Below, in pieces: positions 2,569 to 29,258 of a stretch of DNA of 38,618 nt. Made by a program: the position numbers and the translations under genes. The DNA is taken from the IMG/VR virus record IMGVR_UViG_3300022221_000016, positions 1 through 38,618 of that record; one strand, given 5' to 3'. Source of the stretch: a virus. The notes beneath the pieces are model-generated. The model was not told the origin of the DNA, did not search any database, and saw nothing but the letters and a program-made list of their open reading frames with translations. How positions within the stretch are numbered: the stretch's first letter is position 1; each line of letters begins with the position of its first letter.

Positions 2569-3978
2569 TTACAGAGGCACTATTTTTTTATAAATATATG
2601 CGCTTCCTTGGTTAATTATCGTGTCAATATCATCCGATTTTGCCCCGACAACCAAAGTGTTCCCATCTTTTGACAATGTGGCGCTTGCGCCAAAAAAGTC
2701 GCCGCCAGCATAATCTCCAGCAATAATTATTTGTGACTCGCGCCAATCGCCGGAAAAATAGTTAAAAAGAACAACAGCCCCAGCATCCGAAACCCCGTGA
2801 ACTTTTTTTCCCTCGCAACATGCTGCGATTATTTTACCGTCGCCTGAGATCGATACTTTGTTTCCAAAAGATTTGGTTGTATTCGCTGGAGTGGATGGAT
2901 ATAACGGGCTTCTGTGTGTATAACTTGAACCGTTATAGTGATAGACATATATGGACCCATGATTTGAGATACCTAAATAGGTATCATTCCAGCATCCAAT
3001 TGCAATCACACTAGCGTCGTCACTGATTGCGCAGCTTACACCAAAGTAATCAGTTGCCTGTCCGTCACTTGCAGTCAATAGATGATCTTCTGTCCATACA
3101 GATCCTGTCCGAGTAAACACATACGCTGCTCCTTGATCTGCATTTGCAGCGATGTCATTTCCGAGCGCGCCAACTACGCCTACATTACCGTCTGCTGACA
3201 GCGCTACACAATAGCCAAATTGGTCCCCCGTTGCGGCGTCACTTGCGACGAGTATCTGTTGCTGGGACCAAACACCTGTCGAACGAACAAAGGCATATGC
3301 CGCACCTGTTATCGAATTTCTGGCATACGCACCAATCAACACTGTGTCTCCATTGGACGATATCGAAACTGAAACACCAAATGCATTATTTACGACAGGA
3401 TCGCTGGCAACCAACCTTACCTCATCACCCCAAATGCCACCTGACAACGTATAAACATATGCAGCACCAGCGCCACCGTTCCCACCTTCAGCGCCTATTA
3501 TGGCTGTCGTTCCGTCACTGGATATGTCAATACTTGACCCTAGTCTGTCACTTGCAGCACCATCGCTTGCTGTAATTTTTTGCGTGAACGACCAGACACC
3601 AGCAGTTCGCGTAAATACGTATGCCGCCCCCTGATTTATATTAGACCCAACATCTGCCGCATAAGCGCCAATAATTACCATAGTACCATCTGCCGATATA
3701 GCGGTCGAATAACCAAAGTTGTCAGAGTTTGCGCCATCAGCGCTGGTAATTTTAATATCATCGTCAAACGGAAGACCCCGCAGAAGATGAGAAAGGTGCG
3801 GCAGAAACGATTTGCTCAACTGTGCGTCATCATTCACATCCAGAACTTGTCCGCTTATATTGATGGCATTTTTTAATTCGCGTTGGACGGCGTTCAACCA
3901 GCCAGGAATCAAATCAGTATCGACTTGAAACTCTCCGGCACCGTTTGCTGTTGGTGTATCATCGCCGATTTTATGCAT
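2569..3978 (-). CDS. Tail fibre / receptor-binding protein with seven-bladed FG-GAP propeller
   Basis: A 469-residue protein. Residues 1-70 carry the TPTANGAGEF...PGWLNAVQREL segment typical of prophage fibre N-termini that dock on the baseplate. Residues 75-469 contain seven repeats of about 56 residues, each with an FG/LG followed by a small strand and SxDG: at residues 88, 146, 200, 254, 312, 371 and 429. The repeats also share GAAYVF and GVW, so this is a complete FG-GAP, integrin-alpha-type beta-propeller. The ATG at 3978 follows AGGTG and overlaps the gp48 stop. Position after gp48 is the fibre position in Mu. The coding sequence is visibly more A+T-rich than the baseplate genes, suggesting separate acquisition. 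No fibre-assembly chaperone follows. Confidence 0.85.
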   Translation of the reverse strand: MHKIGDDTPTANGAGEFQVDTDLIPGWLNAVQRELKNAINISGQVLDVNDDAQLSKSFLPHLSHLLRGLPFDDDIKITSADGANSDNFGYSTAISADGTMVIIGAYAADVGSNINQGAAYVFTRTAGVWSFTQKITASDGAASDRLGSSIDISSDGTTAIIGAEGGNGGAGAAYVYTLSGGIWGDEVRLVASDPVVNNAFGVSVSISSNGDTVLIGAYARNSITGAAYAFVRSTGVWSQQQILVASDAATGDQFGYCVALSADGNVGVVGALGNDIAANADQGAAYVFTRTGSVWTEDHLLTASDGQATDYFGVSCAISDDASVIAIGCWNDTYLGISNHGSIYVYHYNGSSYTHRSPLYPSTPANTTKSFGNKVSISGDGKIIAACCEGKKVHGVSDAGAVVLFNYFSGDWRESQIIIAGDYAGGDFFGASATLSKDGNTLVVGAKSDDIDTIINQGSAYIYKKIVPL

Positions 3979-4573
3979 ATCGTTGCACCTCGTAGTTATA
4001 TGTGTATGAATAATCCTGTGCTGCGTTATATGTAAAAGTAGGAATCGCATGCGCCTGATTGAGTCGCACGATCACGCATTCCAGTGCTATCTCTGTGCCG
4101 TAAATACGCAGCGGATATCCTGCGCGATGACCAGGGCCGGCGCCTGCTTTCAGGGTAGTCACCGTGACGCCAGGCACTTTGATCTCGTAGTGGTGAGGCG
4201 TGACCTTATCGACGATGGTGATGGCGAATCCCATGCGGCTTGCCACGCTGACCAGGTACGGGATGTTGTGCCCACCCACACCCAAGTACCGACCCACCAC
4301 GGCAGCGCGGCGCTCGTCGATGGTGGGTGATACGGTGTTGCTGCACTCATCGGGCAGGCCGAGGACTCGCTCCCAGGCGTCGATCATCTCTGTGGTAGTG
4401 CGAGGATCAGTCTCCTGCAGCAGATCGGCCGCTCGGCCATGCACACGAAACAGTTCGTCTGCAATCGCAAACATCAGTGCGGCCATTGTGCTGGTGATAT
4501 CACGCGCCCAGGCGCGGCCACGTGGCAGCAGGTTGAGCAGTGCGTCCCGGTAACTCTCGACGGTTATGCCCAT
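3971..4573 (-). CDS. Baseplate/tail protein, Mu gp48 (DUF2313/YmfQ) family
   Basis: A 200-residue protein beginning MGITVESYRDALLNLLPRGRAWARD. The Leu-Leu-Pro-x-Gly-x-Ala-Trp signature is diagnostic of the DUF2313 family, tail proteins that sit between baseplate J and the fibre. The middle has a helical segment with RAADLLQETDPRTTTEMIDAWE. Length is normal for the family. It overlaps gp47 by 10 bases and the fibre gene by 8, so translation is coupled. Family members are baseplate wedge or tail-tip components of contractile phages; the exact contact is not known to me. Confidence 0.9.
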   Translation of the reverse strand: MGITVESYRDALLNLLPRGRAWARDITSTMAALMFAIADELFRVHGRAADLLQETDPRTTTEMIDAWERVLGLPDECSNTVSPTIDERRAAVVGRYLGVGGHNIPYLVSVASRMGFAITIVDKVTPHHYEIKVPGVTVTTLKAGAGPGHRAGYPLRIYGTEIALECVIVRLNQAHAIPTFTYNAAQDYSYTYNYEVQRYA

Positions 4574-10713: not shown

Positions 10714-11174
10714 CCATCTTTATTAAACCTGACAACGTAAACCCATACACATCATGCAGCGACAACCGAAACCAGGACGCCACGACAACAGACAAATCAG
10801 CCTGTGCTCTTGCCGCCCTGATTAGATCGCCCCCGTTTCGTCACCGCCTCGGACGCTTTTTTGTTCAACGCGGCATCCAACTCATCGGCTGCGCGTTGCA
10901 ATAATGCAAAGTCGGTAACGCTGAACCGTTTCAGCTCTGCCAGTGTTAACGGCCCATCATGATCACCCACCCGGGTGATCTGTCTGGCCAGCATGGCGGT
11001 GCCCATCACCGACGGACTGATCAGCAGCTCAGGGCCTTGCTCGGTTTGCACCATCTTTTCTGCCGCCTCCTGACACTCGATCAAATCCTTCGTGGTTGGT
11101 GCGCGCAGGGTGGCCGTCATGTGCGTTTGTTCGCCAACCTTAAAGCCATCGATCAAATTGATAGTGACGCTCAT
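10694..11174 (-). CDS. Tail assembly chaperone, -2 frameshift product
   Basis: The zero-frame gene ends at 10797, but the -2 frame is open from the GGGGGCGA at 10827-10834 to a TGA at 10694-10696. It adds 44 residues, starting DLIRAARAQADLSVVVASWF and ending MGAQIRE. The extension overlaps the tape-measure start. A longer form made by frameshift directly before the tape measure is the conserved design of contractile and siphophage tail chaperones, and Mu itself is reported to use a -2 shift. The predicted fusion is about 160 residues. That the shift happens is inference from sequence and synteny. Confidence 0.75.
10797..11174 (-). CDS. E: Tail assembly chaperone, zero-frame form (Mu gp41, E family)
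   Basis: A 125-residue protein: MSVTINLIDGFKVGEQTHMTATLRAPTTKDLIECQEAAEKM..., the tail assembly E/gp41 family, with the common TTKDLIEAQEA helix. ISPSVMGTAMLARQITRVGDHDGPLTLAELKRFSVTDFALLQRAADELD is the conserved second half. It is made in excess and guides tube polymerisation around the tape measure. The last eleven residues, after the slip site, are low-complexity and basic. It lies directly after the tube gene. Confidence 0.92.
   Translation of the reverse strand: MSVTINLIDGFKVGEQTHMTATLRAPTTKDLIECQEAAEKMVQTEQGPELLISPSVMGTAMLARQITRVGDHDGPLTLAELKRFSVTDFALLQRAADELDAALNKKASEAVTKRGRSNQGGKSTG
10827..10834 (-). promoter_or_regulatory. Programmed -2 frameshift site GGGGGCGA
   Basis: Minus-strand codons CGG GGG CGA (residues 114-116 of the E protein) contain GGGGGCGA, the heptamer-type slip site I associate with the Mu -2 shift. 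The resulting frame stays open for 44 codons. Strong conservation of both the motif and its place before the tape-measure gene supports function. Confidence 0.7.
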
Positions 11175-19059: not shown

Positions 19060-20187
19060 TTATGCCGATTCGGCCATCGTCTTCAGCGTTGCCGCGTAAT
19101 CTTCTGGCTTAACTCCAGTGCCTTTACACACCGCCATTTGCTGCTCAGTCAGACCATGCGCATTCTTACCTCCGGCAGCGCCACCCGTCTGACCTGCTTT
19201 TAGTGCAGCGATAGACGGCGCGGTGTCCAGGTAACCCTTCAGTGCAGCCAGGTCTTTGCTACCCAGCTCGACGGCCCAGGCGCGCTGCGCCTCAAGAAGC
19301 TTGCCATCTTCAATTGCGCCATTCACCAGCGCATCAACTTCACCGCCGGTCACTTTGGCCGACAGTGCAGCAAGCTGAGTTTGCAGCGCTTTAACAGTGT
19401 CGATAGGCACGTATTGTGCGGGATCGGGTTTGCCGCCCTGGTTGGCCTTCAGTACAGCAATGGCCTGCGCCACATCGCCATCATCAGACAGCGCCAGGCT
19501 TTTGCGCAGAGCCGACAGGCTGGCCTGACTGGCCTGCATATCCTGGATCGCTTTCAGCACATCAACCTGTTTGACCTTGTCCAGGTCTGTTTCTGTCGCC
19601 GTCGCTGGCAAGATCGCCAGTGCCGACAGTATTGCAATCAGTAATTCGTTCACGGTTTTATCCTCTTGTTTGCTGATTTCAAAATGAGCTGCAGCCAGAC
19701 GTTCGATCTCTGCCATGCCATCGATGGCCGCATAATTGACAACTGCCGCCATGAGGATGTCGGCAATGTGACCTGTCTTGCGGTTGTAAACGATGACGGG
19801 GGAGATATAGCGATACTCCTTTGCCTCGATGGCGGCCGCTGCCTTGGGTGTCCATTCAACTTTGGTGGCGACCAGACCAACACCTTCGCGCCACACGACA
19901 TCTTCACCGCGATACCATCCAGCCGCCGGTGCGGGCTGTCCGTTCTCACGGGTGTAGAGGGTTTGATGGTCGTAGTCGATAACGTAACGATCATTGCGAC
20001 CACGGATTGCGTTGAGCACGTCCTGGGCTACGCTGTTATCGATATACCAACCTTGGGCGACTTCATGAGGGCGACCGTCCTTGGCCCTGAACCGGCCTGA
20101 CGGAGTGAGCTGTATCTCGGTCGCGCCACTGACCAGCTCGAACGAGCAAGGCGCGATACCTATGGATTGTCTTGTCTGCTTTTTCAT
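19060..20187 (-). CDS. I: Head maturation protease and scaffold (Mu I, gp32)
   Basis: A 375-residue protein. The N-terminal ~170 residues are the protease: DGRPHEVAQGWYIDNSVAQ, YVIDYDHQTLYT (residues 69-80) and KEYRYISPVIVYN (123-135), where the Asp-His and Ser regions of the gpI family lie. The C-terminal 200 residues are helical, Ala/Gln-rich scaffold. In Mu the scaffold is also made separately from an internal start; MQASQASLSALRK near residue 220 could mark such an internal start region, but the sequence gives no proof. I chose the ATG at 20187: the longer frame to 20316 would read through the late-promoter dyad at 20226-20241, and its extra residues do not look like the family. Confidence 0.92.
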   Translation of the reverse strand: MKKQTRQSIGIAPCSFELVSGATEIQLTPSGRFRAKDGRPHEVAQGWYIDNSVAQDVLNAIRGRNDRYVIDYDHQTLYTRENGQPAPAAGWYRGEDVVWREGVGLVATKVEWTPKAAAAIEAKEYRYISPVIVYNRKTGHIADILMAAVVNYAAIDGMAEIERLAAAHFEISKQEDKTVNELLIAILSALAILPATATETDLDKVKQVDVLKAIQDMQASQASLSALRKSLALSDDGDVAQAIAVLKANQGGKPDPAQYVPIDTVKALQTQLAALSAKVTGGEVDALVNGAIEDGKLLEAQRAWAVELGSKDLAALKGYLDTAPSIAALKAGQTGGAAGGKNAHGLTEQQMAVCKGTGVKPEDYAATLKTMAESA

Positions 20188-20192
20188 TAGCA

Positions 20193-20241
20193 GACAGATT
20201 ACGGGATGCGGTGGAGTTCGATTAGCCTGAAACGTTTCAGG
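20193..20241 (-). promoter_or_regulatory. Activator-dependent late promoter for the head genes
   Basis: The perfect 16-bp palindrome CCTGAAACGTTTCAGG (20226-20241) is followed on the minus strand, 22 bases later, by CGTAAT and CTGT just before the ATG at 20187. The same arrangement occurs at 28747-28793. A dyad centred ~31 bp before the -10 hexamer is the spacing used by Mor/C-class activators. It corresponds to the Mu PI promoter in location. There is no Shine-Dalgarno sequence between the -10 and the ATG. Confidence 0.65.
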
Positions 20242-20440
20242 CGGGGAATAGGGGAAGGTCACTTCCTTGTGCAGACTATCCAACTTTGATGCTCCAGGCA
20301 AATATAAACAACACACGCAAATAAATTACTGTTTTGTTATGCCTGCGAACAGCCACCCCCTGTTAAGTTTGACAGTCCTTTTTTTCTGATATTTTTCAAT
20401 CAATTTTTATGTCTATATAAAATAAATAGTTATTAACAAT

Positions 20441-20500
20441 TGGACACTTAGCGCAATACCTGTAATATTTGGTAGGTGTGCCGACATAGATATAGGCACA
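20441..20500 (+). promoter_or_regulatory. Promoter and operator-like repeat for the response-regulator gene
   Basis: TGGACA (20441-20446), 16 bp, TAATAT (20463-20468), preceded by an AT-rich stretch (20384-20440) that could act as an UP element. Just downstream, TGTGCC (20477-20482) and GGCACA (20495-20500) form an inverted repeat with 12 bp between, positioned like an operator or a leader hairpin. This gives the plus-strand gene expression independent of the phage operons. The remainder of 20242-20552 has no gene. Confidence 0.6.
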
Positions 20501-20552
20501 AATATCGTCGGAATTAACTGACAAACCATAAGCGCAACTCAGGGACAAATAG

Positions 20553-20945
20553 ATGGTGCTAATCGTTGATGATGATCCGCTGGTGGCCGGTGTTTATCGC
20601 AACCTGCTCAACCAGATGGGGCAGCAGAGCGAGATATATACCTCGGCCGATGCAGCTCTGCGCGCCTTCCACGCCGCACCATCTATATATAGACACGCCG
20701 TTCTGGACGTGTTCCTCCATGCCCAAATGGACGGTCTGGTGTTGGCCGAAAAACTGCGGGAGATCAAGCCCAGCCTGCCCATACTATTTGCGACCGGGCT
20801 GGATGATGAGATCAACAAGACCCGACTGCTACAGGTTGGTTATTATCTGCGCAAGACCAGCCTGATACCATCGATCCAGGCGGCGCTGTACCAGCTGATC
20901 CACGGCGTACCCATGCCGGGATATCCCGACTCCCTGTTACCCTAA
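20553..20945 (+). CDS. Stand-alone response-regulator receiver protein
   Basis: A 130-residue single REC domain. All catalytic residues are present: acidic triad DDD at 6-8, phosphoacceptor Asp52 (AVLDVF), Thr81 (ILFATG) and Lys101 (YLRKTS). MDGLVLAEKLR follows Asp52 as in classical receivers. No output domain is attached, so it would act like CheY or Spo0F by protein contact or as a phosphate sink. It is on the plus strand between gpG and gpI, with its own promoter; Mu has no gene here. It probably is a lysogenic-conversion gene that interferes with or borrows a host two-component system. Its kinase and target cannot be told from the sequence. Confidence 0.93.
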   Translation: MVLIVDDDPLVAGVYRNLLNQMGQQSEIYTSADAALRAFHAAPSIYRHAVLDVFLHAQMDGLVLAEKLREIKPSLPILFATGLDDEINKTRLLQVGYYLRKTSLIPSIQAALYQLIHGVPMPGYPDSLLP

Positions 20946-20988
20946 GCAACACCCGTTTAAATCCTGGTTAATTCGTTTAACCGTTTCG

Positions 20989-21007
20989 CGCTCCGGCCGT
21001 TGGAGCG
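20989..21007 (+). terminator. Possible terminator hairpin between convergent genes
   Basis: CGCTCC (20989-20994), 7-nt loop, GGAGCG (21002-21007), lying between the end of the plus-strand receiver gene and the end of gpG. No T-run follows in either direction, so efficiency is doubtful; a second weak stem GGCCGC/GCGGCC spans about 21018-21045. It could reduce convergent transcription collisions. Confidence 0.35.
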
Positions 21008-21044
21008 ACGAATATTGGGCCGCTGATATCGGCTCTCTGGCGGC

Positions 21045-21608
21045 CTAACCCTGCACGGCGCGACGGTAGTGATCGGCCAGTTTGGCGACAATCAAATTGC
21101 GATCCAGTGCACCGATGCCCAGCACCGGCCGGGCAGGCATCTCGATCTTGTGCGCCCCAATTGTGACCCACTGGGAGAAATTCGACCGGCGCTTGCCGAC
21201 GAACCGGTTGCCAACCTCACCGGTGTTGTTCCGTTTAAAGTAGGCCTGCTGGCTGCGCGCCGCGATTTCAATAGTCCCTCCAAATTGATGGATTGCGGCA
21301 TAGTGTATGTTGGTTCCCACAATGAGTTGGTCACTCCCGGCGATGTATGTATATGAGCCTCGCAGCTGGCTGCTTTCCGTGAGTATTTTATTGTTCTTTT
21401 TCCGTCGCAGTGTTCGCGGACTAAGCTTCGCCCACGGTCGACCATCCGGGTCCATCTCTTTGCTAAAACGATCCTCGATGTTGAGCAGGAAACCTTCGCC
21501 GATATCCATAAAGGCCGCTCGCGCATTACCCGCAGCTCGGCGCAGTCGACGAAACCCATCCAGGATCGGTTTGTCTTTGAATTCATAATCCAGTCTTATC
21601 GTGCTCAT
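21045..21608 (-). CDS. G: Virion morphogenesis protein gpG (Mu gp31)
   Basis: A 187-residue protein with KEMDPDGRPWAKLSPRTLRRKKN (residues ~55-77) and LTESSQLRGSYTYIAGSDQLIVGTNIHYAAIHQFGGTIE, the phage virion morphogenesis (gpG/gpS) family signature, and PARPVLGIGALDRN at the C-terminus. In Mu it influences tail completion and head-tail joining. It overlaps the head morphogenesis gene by 4 bases. Confidence 0.94.
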   Translation of the reverse strand: MSTIRLDYEFKDKPILDGFRRLRRAAGNARAAFMDIGEGFLLNIEDRFSKEMDPDGRPWAKLSPRTLRRKKNNKILTESSQLRGSYTYIAGSDQLIVGTNIHYAAIHQFGGTIEIAARSQQAYFKRNNTGEVGNRFVGKRRSNFSQWVTIGAHKIEMPARPVLGIGALDRNLIVAKLADHYRRAVQG

Positions 21609-22828
21609 GTTTTTTTGCCGTAGAGTAACCGGCCGAGCCTGAACTTGTCGGCGTATTTGATGCGATTGGTGGTGATGATCGAAACCGACTCCAGCATGCC
21701 GCGCACAGCAGCAGCGGAGACCAGGACTTGTTTGCCGTCGAGATTATATGCCTTGATGATGCGTGATCGCAGCTCCACCATGCCGGTGCCGTTATGTTGT
21801 TCGAACCGATACCACACCTCATACGGATCGCTCAATGTATCATTGAGCAACGGCAGGTATTCGCTTTGTTTTAGATCGATGTGTTCGCTCAGGGTGACCG
21901 CATTCACCAGCACCGGCAGACCGGCTGCATTGAATATCTGCTCATCACCACTGAGTTGTTGTTTCAATCTATCGGTCACTTGATCGCGAGTGGCTGCACG
22001 TTCGACTGGTTTGATCTTGGTCGTGACGGTTGGCACCTTGTCCGGTCGGTTGAATGTCTCCGGTCCACCGGAGGTGAGCGGTGTCCAGGCTTTCGGACCC
22101 TGGGCCTGCCATGCGCTCATGGTCTCTTCGCTTAATGGTCTGCCCCAGGCCGCAGTGCCGGGGTTATAGGCAAAGCCGGGGTCGATGCCTTTGGGGACCT
22201 TTACTGTGCGCGGGTTCGGGCCGCGTGCGCCGATGGTCTTTTCGACATACTCGATGGCCGGTGCCTGTGTTGATATGGTCAAGCCTCGCGCTTTTACATC
22301 AGATGCCGAGAGGGTGTACTTTTTACAGGTGCAGCCCCAGCCGTTCATAGGAGTCCAGACATCCCACCACGGATCGTCCAATGGCAGCACCAGGTCGTCA
22401 TTTGCTTCATGGTCCGGCCTTGGTGTAATGGGGTCGCCGTGCTTGTATAAGCCATAGGGCCGGGCCGCTCGCAGATCAGGATCAAGCATCTGCTTTTCAC
22501 GCCCGGCATTGTAGGCCTGGCGCATGTTGGTTTCATAGATAACGCGAGTTCGCCAGCCGCGACCACCGTTATAAGACCAGCCATGTTTGGCCACCACCTG
22601 GTCGAAGCCTTTCCTGAATGCCTCAATACCGGCACCTTCCGCAATGGCGGTGTCAACGATAGATCGCAGGTCGGTCAGCAGCTCCTGTTTCATCGCGCCC
22701 GCCACCACAAAGGCACGGCTATGCATGCCTTCGTAGATGTCGGTCCAGGTGCGGGTGGGCAGGTTGATCTTTTGCCGGAAGTAATTGATGCCTTCAGCGA
22801 ACGGGAGTTTTTTATAATCGACAGGCAT
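21605..22828 (-). CDS. F: Minor head protein gpF family with C-terminal nuclease-like domain (Mu gp30)
   Basis: A 407-residue protein. Residues ~1-190 are the Mu F-like minor head region: WTDIYEGMHSRAFVVAG, TRVIYETNMRQAYNAGREKQM, RPYGLYKHGD, and HGC/Cys-type WGCTCKKYTLS. Residues ~306-407 resemble the phage Barnase-EndoU-ColicinE5/RelE-like nuclease domain that is known at the C-terminus of such proteins: EYLPLLNDTLSDPYEVWYRFE (DPxEVW at ~335-340) and the end YADKFRLGRLLYGKKT. If active, it would be carried in the virion and might be injected with DNA. The domain call is from motif memory; its activity is not shown. Confidence 0.88.
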   Translation of the reverse strand: MPVDYKKLPFAEGINYFRQKINLPTRTWTDIYEGMHSRAFVVAGAMKQELLTDLRSIVDTAIAEGAGIEAFRKGFDQVVAKHGWSYNGGRGWRTRVIYETNMRQAYNAGREKQMLDPDLRAARPYGLYKHGDPITPRPDHEANDDLVLPLDDPWWDVWTPMNGWGCTCKKYTLSASDVKARGLTISTQAPAIEYVEKTIGARGPNPRTVKVPKGIDPGFAYNPGTAAWGRPLSEETMSAWQAQGPKAWTPLTSGGPETFNRPDKVPTVTTKIKPVERAATRDQVTDRLKQQLSGDEQIFNAAGLPVLVNAVTLSEHIDLKQSEYLPLLNDTLSDPYEVWYRFEQHNGTGMVELRSRIIKAYNLDGKQVLVSAAAVRGMLESVSIITTNRIKYADKFRLGRLLYGKKT

Positions 22829-28746: not shown

Positions 28747-28793
28747 AGATTAATGGGATAGGGTTTGTTGATACAGGCCTGAAGCATTTCAGG
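28747..28793 (-). promoter_or_regulatory. Activator-dependent late promoter before the holin-like gene
   Basis: CCTGAA-GCAT-TTCAGG (28778-28793) is the partner of the dyad at 20226-20241, with identical 6-bp arms. On the minus strand ATTAAT follows 23 bases later, then CTGT and the gene. Both sites also share ATCCC before the -10. It lies 58 bp downstream of the Mor-like gene, at the Plys position of Mu. Confidence 0.65.
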
Positions 28794-28850
28794 TGCAGCA
28801 GGATTTAAACGGCAATGACACACCGATCATATCCCGGCATGAGGGTAACG

Positions 28851-29258
28851 TCAAAAGAGAGAGGATTGGCGGGTGTCGGCGTGTTTGAATTTGGCGAGGA
28901 TGATCCAGATCATGCGCTCGGTGAGGTCGTATTCACGGGACAGCGAGAGGGCGGTTTCTCCCAAGGCATAGCGGTGGAAGATCTGCCGGTCTCGCACGGC
29001 GATGATCGCTTTCTTGCAGTTGGGGATGTTGTACAAATCTGAGCCGCCATAATTCTTCACCAGTGCTATGGCGGTTGTCTTTCCCAGACTATCAACCAGA
29101 GGATGATCGTCTTCAATCACCCTGGGCACGTGTAAGCGCATCGTGCCGCCATAGCGGCTGACCAACGTCAGCGTGGAGACCAGGCCAAGCGCAACCACAT
29201 ACTCCTGCAGGGATGCAGGCAGATCGTCGGTGGTGAGCTGTGACAGGTTAGTGTTCAT
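28851..29258 (-). CDS. mor: Mor/C-family transcription activator
   Basis: A 135-residue protein of the Mor family: LPASLQEYVVALGLVSTLTLVSRYGGTMRLHVPR, LVDSLGKTTAIALVKNYGGSDLYNIPNC forms the dimerisation part, and RDRQIFHRYALGETALSLSREYDLTERMIWIILAKF (~90-125) the helix-turn-helix. Mor dimers bind dyads near -43 and recruit RNA polymerase. Only one such gene is visible (Mu has Mor and C), and the two conserved dyads (20226 and 28778) are its likely targets. It ends the early operon. Confidence 0.95.
   Translation of the reverse strand: MNTNLSQLTTDDLPASLQEYVVALGLVSTLTLVSRYGGTMRLHVPRVIEDDHPLVDSLGKTTAIALVKNYGGSDLYNIPNCKKAIIAVRDRQIFHRYALGETALSLSREYDLTERMIWIILAKFKHADTRQSSLF

Follow-up and report, generated by a model that had tools for sequence, protein, structure and literature searches.

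In Mu-like phages, the junction between gpG and gpI is a known site for accessory genes, anti-CRISPRs among them. In those infecting Pseudomonas aeruginosa, this region (RGP G) is accessory, has a low GC content and carries anti-CRISPR genes (PMC4378225), and matches to solved chains place AcrF1 and Aca1 between the gpG and gpI homologues of phage JBD30. The phage protein PIT4 binds histidine kinase domains of its host and is a suppressor of pilus motility (PMC10714779), and Tip, Aqs1 and PIT4 are phage proteins that control the pilus (PMC11656802, PMC10714779). On the bacterial side, Osp, a single-domain receiver-like protein, inhibits the kinase CckA directly (PMC9430884). The F-A-T-G motif is found in receivers of phosphorelays, MrrA and SdrG being examples, and the FATGUY motif reads PFxFATG[GY] (PMC5964349). 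A study of hybrid-kinase receivers treated the Lys-Pro cis-peptide, by which the lysine is positioned in the active site, as a hallmark (PMC9981736).

Phages seldom carry receivers, but there are examples. A receiver-pattern scan detected a 130-aa stand-alone receiver between the tail genes of an unrelated phage (L237:3986-4375) and another one, read against the tail operon, in a further unrelated phage (L244:3857-4354), and a structure search retrieved a few annotated phage receivers, including BFVD A0A6J5RMP2. Two more records with receivers (L245 and L250) were left out as phage examples and may be bacterial sequence. No functional description of phage receivers was found in the open-access literature searched.

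A stand-alone receiver in the cargo slot of a Mu-like phage

The window, i.e., the whole 38,618-nucleotide stretch analyzed here, which is an IMG/VR-type virus record, carries a Mu-like gene set composed of a transposase, a transposition protein, Gam, GemA, Mor, portal, gpF, gpG, gpI and a gpT-type capsid protein (Table 1). Other features were observed along the window. The gpF product (21605-22828) has a C-terminal PBECR2 nuclease-like domain (E 1.5e-16), and the tail region encodes a protein with six FG-GAP repeats (2569-4050) whose GC content of 0.456 and codon usage are unlike those of other genes. A Dam/D12-type adenine methyltransferase (1651-2439) lies near the phage end, roughly at the place of the Mu mom region, and three copies of an 81-nt repeat (89-100%; 711-791, 1168-1248 and 1552-1632) are interspersed with small ORFs at the phage's tail end, and a GCGACAATG-TGTCGC inverted repeat closes each copy.

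The stand-alone receiver that a preliminary description had assigned to this phage was confirmed by a PF00072 profile match of its product (E 5.6e-13, 49.5 bits against a cut-off of 30.2), by the modeled fold and by the lack of an output domain, which was sought downstream, where the convergent gpG ends 99 bp on. The gene is also opposite to the head operon, as that description had it, since it is read on the plus strand against the Pfam-identified gpG and gpI, and the translation and alignment revealed all the named phosphorylation residues (D6, D7, D8, D52, T81 and K101) at their positions. In addition, Y98 (K-3) occupies the place of the CheY switch aromatic and forms with T81 a Thr/Tyr switch pair. 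The ORF is a real gene, because its codon usage is phage-typical (31 of the 40 phage genes score lower) and surpasses that of each of the five alternative frames. Supplied with thirteen viral-contig receivers, AlphaFold gave a model with a mean pLDDT of 89.1 and a pTM of 0.84 (the single-sequence model, at pLDDT 47.6, was useless), in which five strands (2-5, 26-29, 48-52, 77-81 and 97-100) alternate with five helices, including alpha4 at 86-95. Foldseek retrieved hundreds of solved-chain matches with this model, the best of which were receivers at a TM of about 0.8. As modeled, the phage protein has the (beta-alpha)5 receiver fold.

Table 1. Coordinates of the receiver gene, its flanks and the late-transcription features in the window
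Feature	Position	Strand	Basis or remark
gpI, Mu-like head protease/scaffold, left slot border	about 19060..20187	-	PF10123 E 8.1e-97; start inferred from JBD30 alignment
Intergenic region, receiver/gpI divergent, 365 bp	20188..20552		Includes the low-GC stretch 20301-20530
Perfect 18-bp palindrome GCCTGAAACGTTTCAGGC	20225..20242		About 37 bp upstream of gpI start; position of Mu promoter PI
Leader inverted repeat TGTGCC-N12-GGCACA	20477..20500	+	Upstream of receiver
Stand-alone receiver gene, 130 aa	20553..20945	+	PF00072 match, translation, AlphaFold model
Spacer, receiver/gpG convergent, 99 bp	20946..21044		GC-rich hairpins
gpG, Mu-like virion morphogenesis protein, right slot border	21045..21608	-	PF05069 E 7.3e-27
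Near copy of the palindrome GCCTGAAGCATTTCAGGT	28777..28794		About 36 bp upstream of first ORF after mor; position of Mu promoter Plys
Mor-type activator of middle/late transcription	28851..29258	-	PF08765 E 3.3e-12

It had also been claimed that the gene splits gpG from gpI where Mu has nothing. In line with this, the G-I gap of the Mu-type phage D108 holds just a 42-codon ORF. The placement is not anomalous, however, since this is a known cargo slot. In a survey of relatives from viral contigs and genomes, comprising 105 distinct records with both border genes, the gap was short (<450 bp, median 272 bp) in 67 and contained cargo in 38, such as AcrF3, AbiH-like proteins, a KAP NTPase, D12/type II methyltransferases and candidate defense proteins. 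About 11 of the 84 other slot ORFs had a defense-related match and most had none, so that the slot alone does not predict function. Large cargo of 2-3.4 kb was observed in other Mu-like phages (L075:1964-4950, L105:1840-5001, L130:2876-4900 and L203:7559-10936), and the longest cargo ORFs of L075 and L130, which gave no PADLOC match, are possible new defense genes.

In the window, the receiver is the only recognizable gene of the slot, which has no acr or aca gene. Receiver cargo is unique in the sample of related loci, as the receiver profile, applied to 15,387 ORFs from 192 loci (the window's among them), hit only the window's own receiver and none in the 191 related loci, and PF00072 found none in 50 whole related viral records. 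Conservation is consequently unusable as a sign of selection. Concerning the features of a moron, the receiver is an extra gene between two genes that are direct neighbors in the 67 records without cargo, and the region upstream of it is the lowest in GC, the gene itself having a phage-typical base composition. A strict moron structure is not established, because promoter matches occur at chance level and no terminator was found.

Candidate expression signals and late-activator sites

The receiver is likely transcribed on its own, since it faces away from gpI and toward gpG. The promoter of its own proposed in the preliminary description is compatible with two overlapping sigma-70-like matches (9/12) upstream of the gene and with an AT-rich stretch there (20301-20530), where GC falls to 0.326, lower than in any other 230 bp of the window (median 0.53), but with 1.5 such matches expected by chance there is no excess. 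Similarly, the inverted repeat reported in the leader exists, but this leader folds no better than its shuffles (z -1.64, 14/200). No T-run terminator was found in the spacer after the receiver, which has GC-rich hairpins only, and an Rfam search found nothing.

The perfect palindrome in the same intergenic region is more significant than the leader repeat and adjoins gpI, and it probably serves gpI and not the receiver. Three copies of its core, CTGAAN4TTCAG, lie in the window, where chance would give 0.03. Given their positions, the palindrome and its near copy would be candidate sites of the phage's own Mor-type late activator. The third core copy, inside a tail ORF (10921-10934), may be due to chance. 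If transcription starts anew at gpI from a late promoter just past the slot, this would account for the tolerance of the G-I slot to an insert.

Phosphorylation site and relatives of the receiver

The receiver had been described as complete, which holds for its catalytic residues but not for their surroundings. Relative to 53 cellular receivers with both the phospho-Asp and the Lys, taken from a few genomes and plasmids, the phage protein departs at three points. K101 is followed by a threonine (T102), whereas K-P is found in 50 of the 53 cellular and in all 13 viral receivers. The loop glycine after the phospho-Asp lies at D+9, compared with D+8 in 52/53, and T81 and K101 are 20 residues apart, compared with 22 in 46/53. 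None of the 53 combines the three. As D+9 spacing and short stretches before beta5 recur in several viral receivers, both belong to a wider subfamily; the missing proline does not. The reading of the extra residue after D52 as degeneration was dropped for the same reason. The loss of the proline may reduce phosphorylation, which, judging from the residues present, is plausible but not assured, given that the Lys-Pro cis-peptide places the lysine.

The beta4 strand is also peculiar, its F79-A80-T81-G82 being unique among the 55 receivers examined, and the phage P-I-L-F-A-T-G-L fits PFxFATG[GY] at all positions but two (the F and the G/Y). Membership of the FATGUY group is not claimed, as Y98 on beta5 and the modeled alpha4 speak against it.

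The protein was first named CheY-like, a term that suits its fold but not its sequence. PDB CheY chains scored at most 20.9 bits, far down the match list behind many other receivers, and CheY was not the closest relative, hybrid-kinase and rhizobial receivers being nearer. In the sampled genomes, a PAS hybrid kinase supplied the best single match with its C-terminal receiver (L182, 38-39% identity), ahead of single-domain receivers of rhizobial plasmids (34-37% identity over 87-99% of the length), and a PRK13557-type profile matched at E 1.9e-10, under that family's own cut-off. Peptide patterns found no close receiver relatives in viral contigs, and the phage collection contained none at E 1e-5, with only generic receivers at E 1. 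Among 369 sampled genomes from the class of a Chromatiales MAG there was no receiver relative at E 1e-13, and 297 from the phylum of a Desulfobulbaceae MAG yielded one hybrid-kinase receiver at 39%; related phage head genes occur in both groups. One tree placed the phage receiver with the rhizobial single-domain receivers (95/84), on a long branch, and alternative groupings with L182 or L237 were not rejected (AU p 0.58). The search and the phylogeny thus delivered rhizobial and hybrid-kinase matches but no close relative in the sampled genomes, and with a long branch and unrejected alternatives the origin is not fixed.

Possible role in the lysogen and comparison with known systems

We give about an even chance to the reading that the receiver gene is accessory cargo (a moron) and that, in the lysogen, its product binds a histidine kinase or phosphorelay of the host or drains it. 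Since the gene is read alone and against the late operon, its expression would most likely come from the prophage or fall early in infection. Having no output domain, the receiver must act by protein contacts, and it might attach to histidine kinases or phosphotransfer domains of the host, one or several of them, either taking the phosphoryl group as a sink or blocking the docking face as a competitor. A host two-component pathway would thereby be shifted, and the lysogen might be protected, e.g., against superinfection, through changed surface structures or an altered defense state. Among the phage's own genes, no partner kinase turned up. Action on the kinase or phosphotransfer side is the most likely form because of the accessory slot, the conserved catalytic residues and the distance from CheY, and the precedents of PIT4 and Osp support it. 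Action on host signaling in the lysogen, as proposed at the outset, stands as the likeliest function class for this stand-alone receiver, but the specific outputs named there (motility, biofilm or stress) are conjectural, and the motility version is possible but not favored, there being no closeness to CheY.

Some of the same observations could indicate a passenger, i.e., a captured receiver drifting without function or unexpressed. Its uniqueness in the sample, the long branch in the trees, the departures around the phosphorylation site and the lack of a significant promoter are all consistent with this, but the frame is open, its codon usage is phage-typical and the catalytic residues are all kept. 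The retention of D52, T81, K101, D6/D7 and Y98 favors function, since a mere remnant need not keep them. Moreover, phage head operons are compact and rarely retain 0.8 kb of useless insert for long, and we consider a passenger unlikely.

The T81/Y98 switch pair and the modeled alpha4 in a stand-alone receiver would also suit an output of the CheY/PilG type, in which the protein would be phosphorylated by a host chemosensory kinase, bind the motility machine and alter the swimming or twitching of the lysogen. Phage precedents for pilus control are provided by Tip, Aqs1 and PIT4 (PMC11656802, PMC10714779), but the remoteness of the sequence from CheY, with its nearest relatives among hybrid-kinase and rhizobial single-domain receivers, makes such an output rather improbable.

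An anti-defense factor, blocking a host defense system directly or via the two-component pathway that controls it, would be in keeping with the company in the slot (AcrF1/Aca1 in JBD30, AcrF3 and other defense-related genes), but it is very unlikely given the few defense matches among the other slot ORFs and the absence of an aca-type regulator beside the gene. An equally slight probability attaches to a phage-internal regulator that would report the host kinase or acetyl-phosphate state to a lysis-lysogeny or late-gene switch, e.g., via the gpI promoter, as the divergent 365-bp region with a palindrome recurring after mor might suggest, because the receiver has no DNA-binding domain and the palindrome, close to gpI and present also where there is no receiver gene, is better explained by the Mor-type activator.

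If the product works on host kinases, a temperate phage would reprogram a two-component pathway with one captured receiver, and the G-I slot would hold signaling modifiers besides anti-CRISPRs. Surveying this slot is a simple way to seek defense and counter-defense genes in Mu-like phages outside Pseudomonas. A broader proposal, that phages repeatedly capture single receivers to decoy the histidine kinases of the host or draw off their phosphate, these receivers serving as lysogen or anti-defense factors distinct from the known phage inhibitors, with one here in an anti-CRISPR slot, is doubtful.

Compared with other phage receivers, the window's gene resembles L237, L244 and A0A6J5RMP2 in being a single receiver domain carried as an extra gene. 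These three are located in tail clusters or unplaced and share about 20-29% identity with it, and L237 and L244 have the canonical K-P that it lacks. Among cellular proteins, the rhizobial receivers (the S. meliloti plasmid response regulator L179 and Rhizobium L181) also stand alone but display the canonical K-P and T-K spacing, and those of PAS hybrid histidine kinases (L182 and PRK13557-type) are kinase-fused with the canonical K-P. The FATGUY receivers Sma0114, SdrG and MrrA share with it the single domain and the F-A-T-G of beta4, which in the phage protein is followed by L-D instead of the FATGUY G/Y; unlike Sma0114, which is devoid of the beta5 aromatic and of alpha4, it has Y98 and a modeled alpha4. 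PIT4 of phage LSL4 is likewise a phage protein acting on host two-component systems, but LSL4 is lytic, and the parts of the source consulted do not present PIT4 as a receiver (PMC10714779). The closest counterpart of the locus as a whole is the JBD30-type anti-CRISPR locus (RGP G, PMC4378225), with the same gpG-gpI position, accessory content and low-GC stretch; its cargo is acr/aca and, in JBD30, acrIF1-aca1 is read with the head operon, whereas the window carries a receiver read against it.
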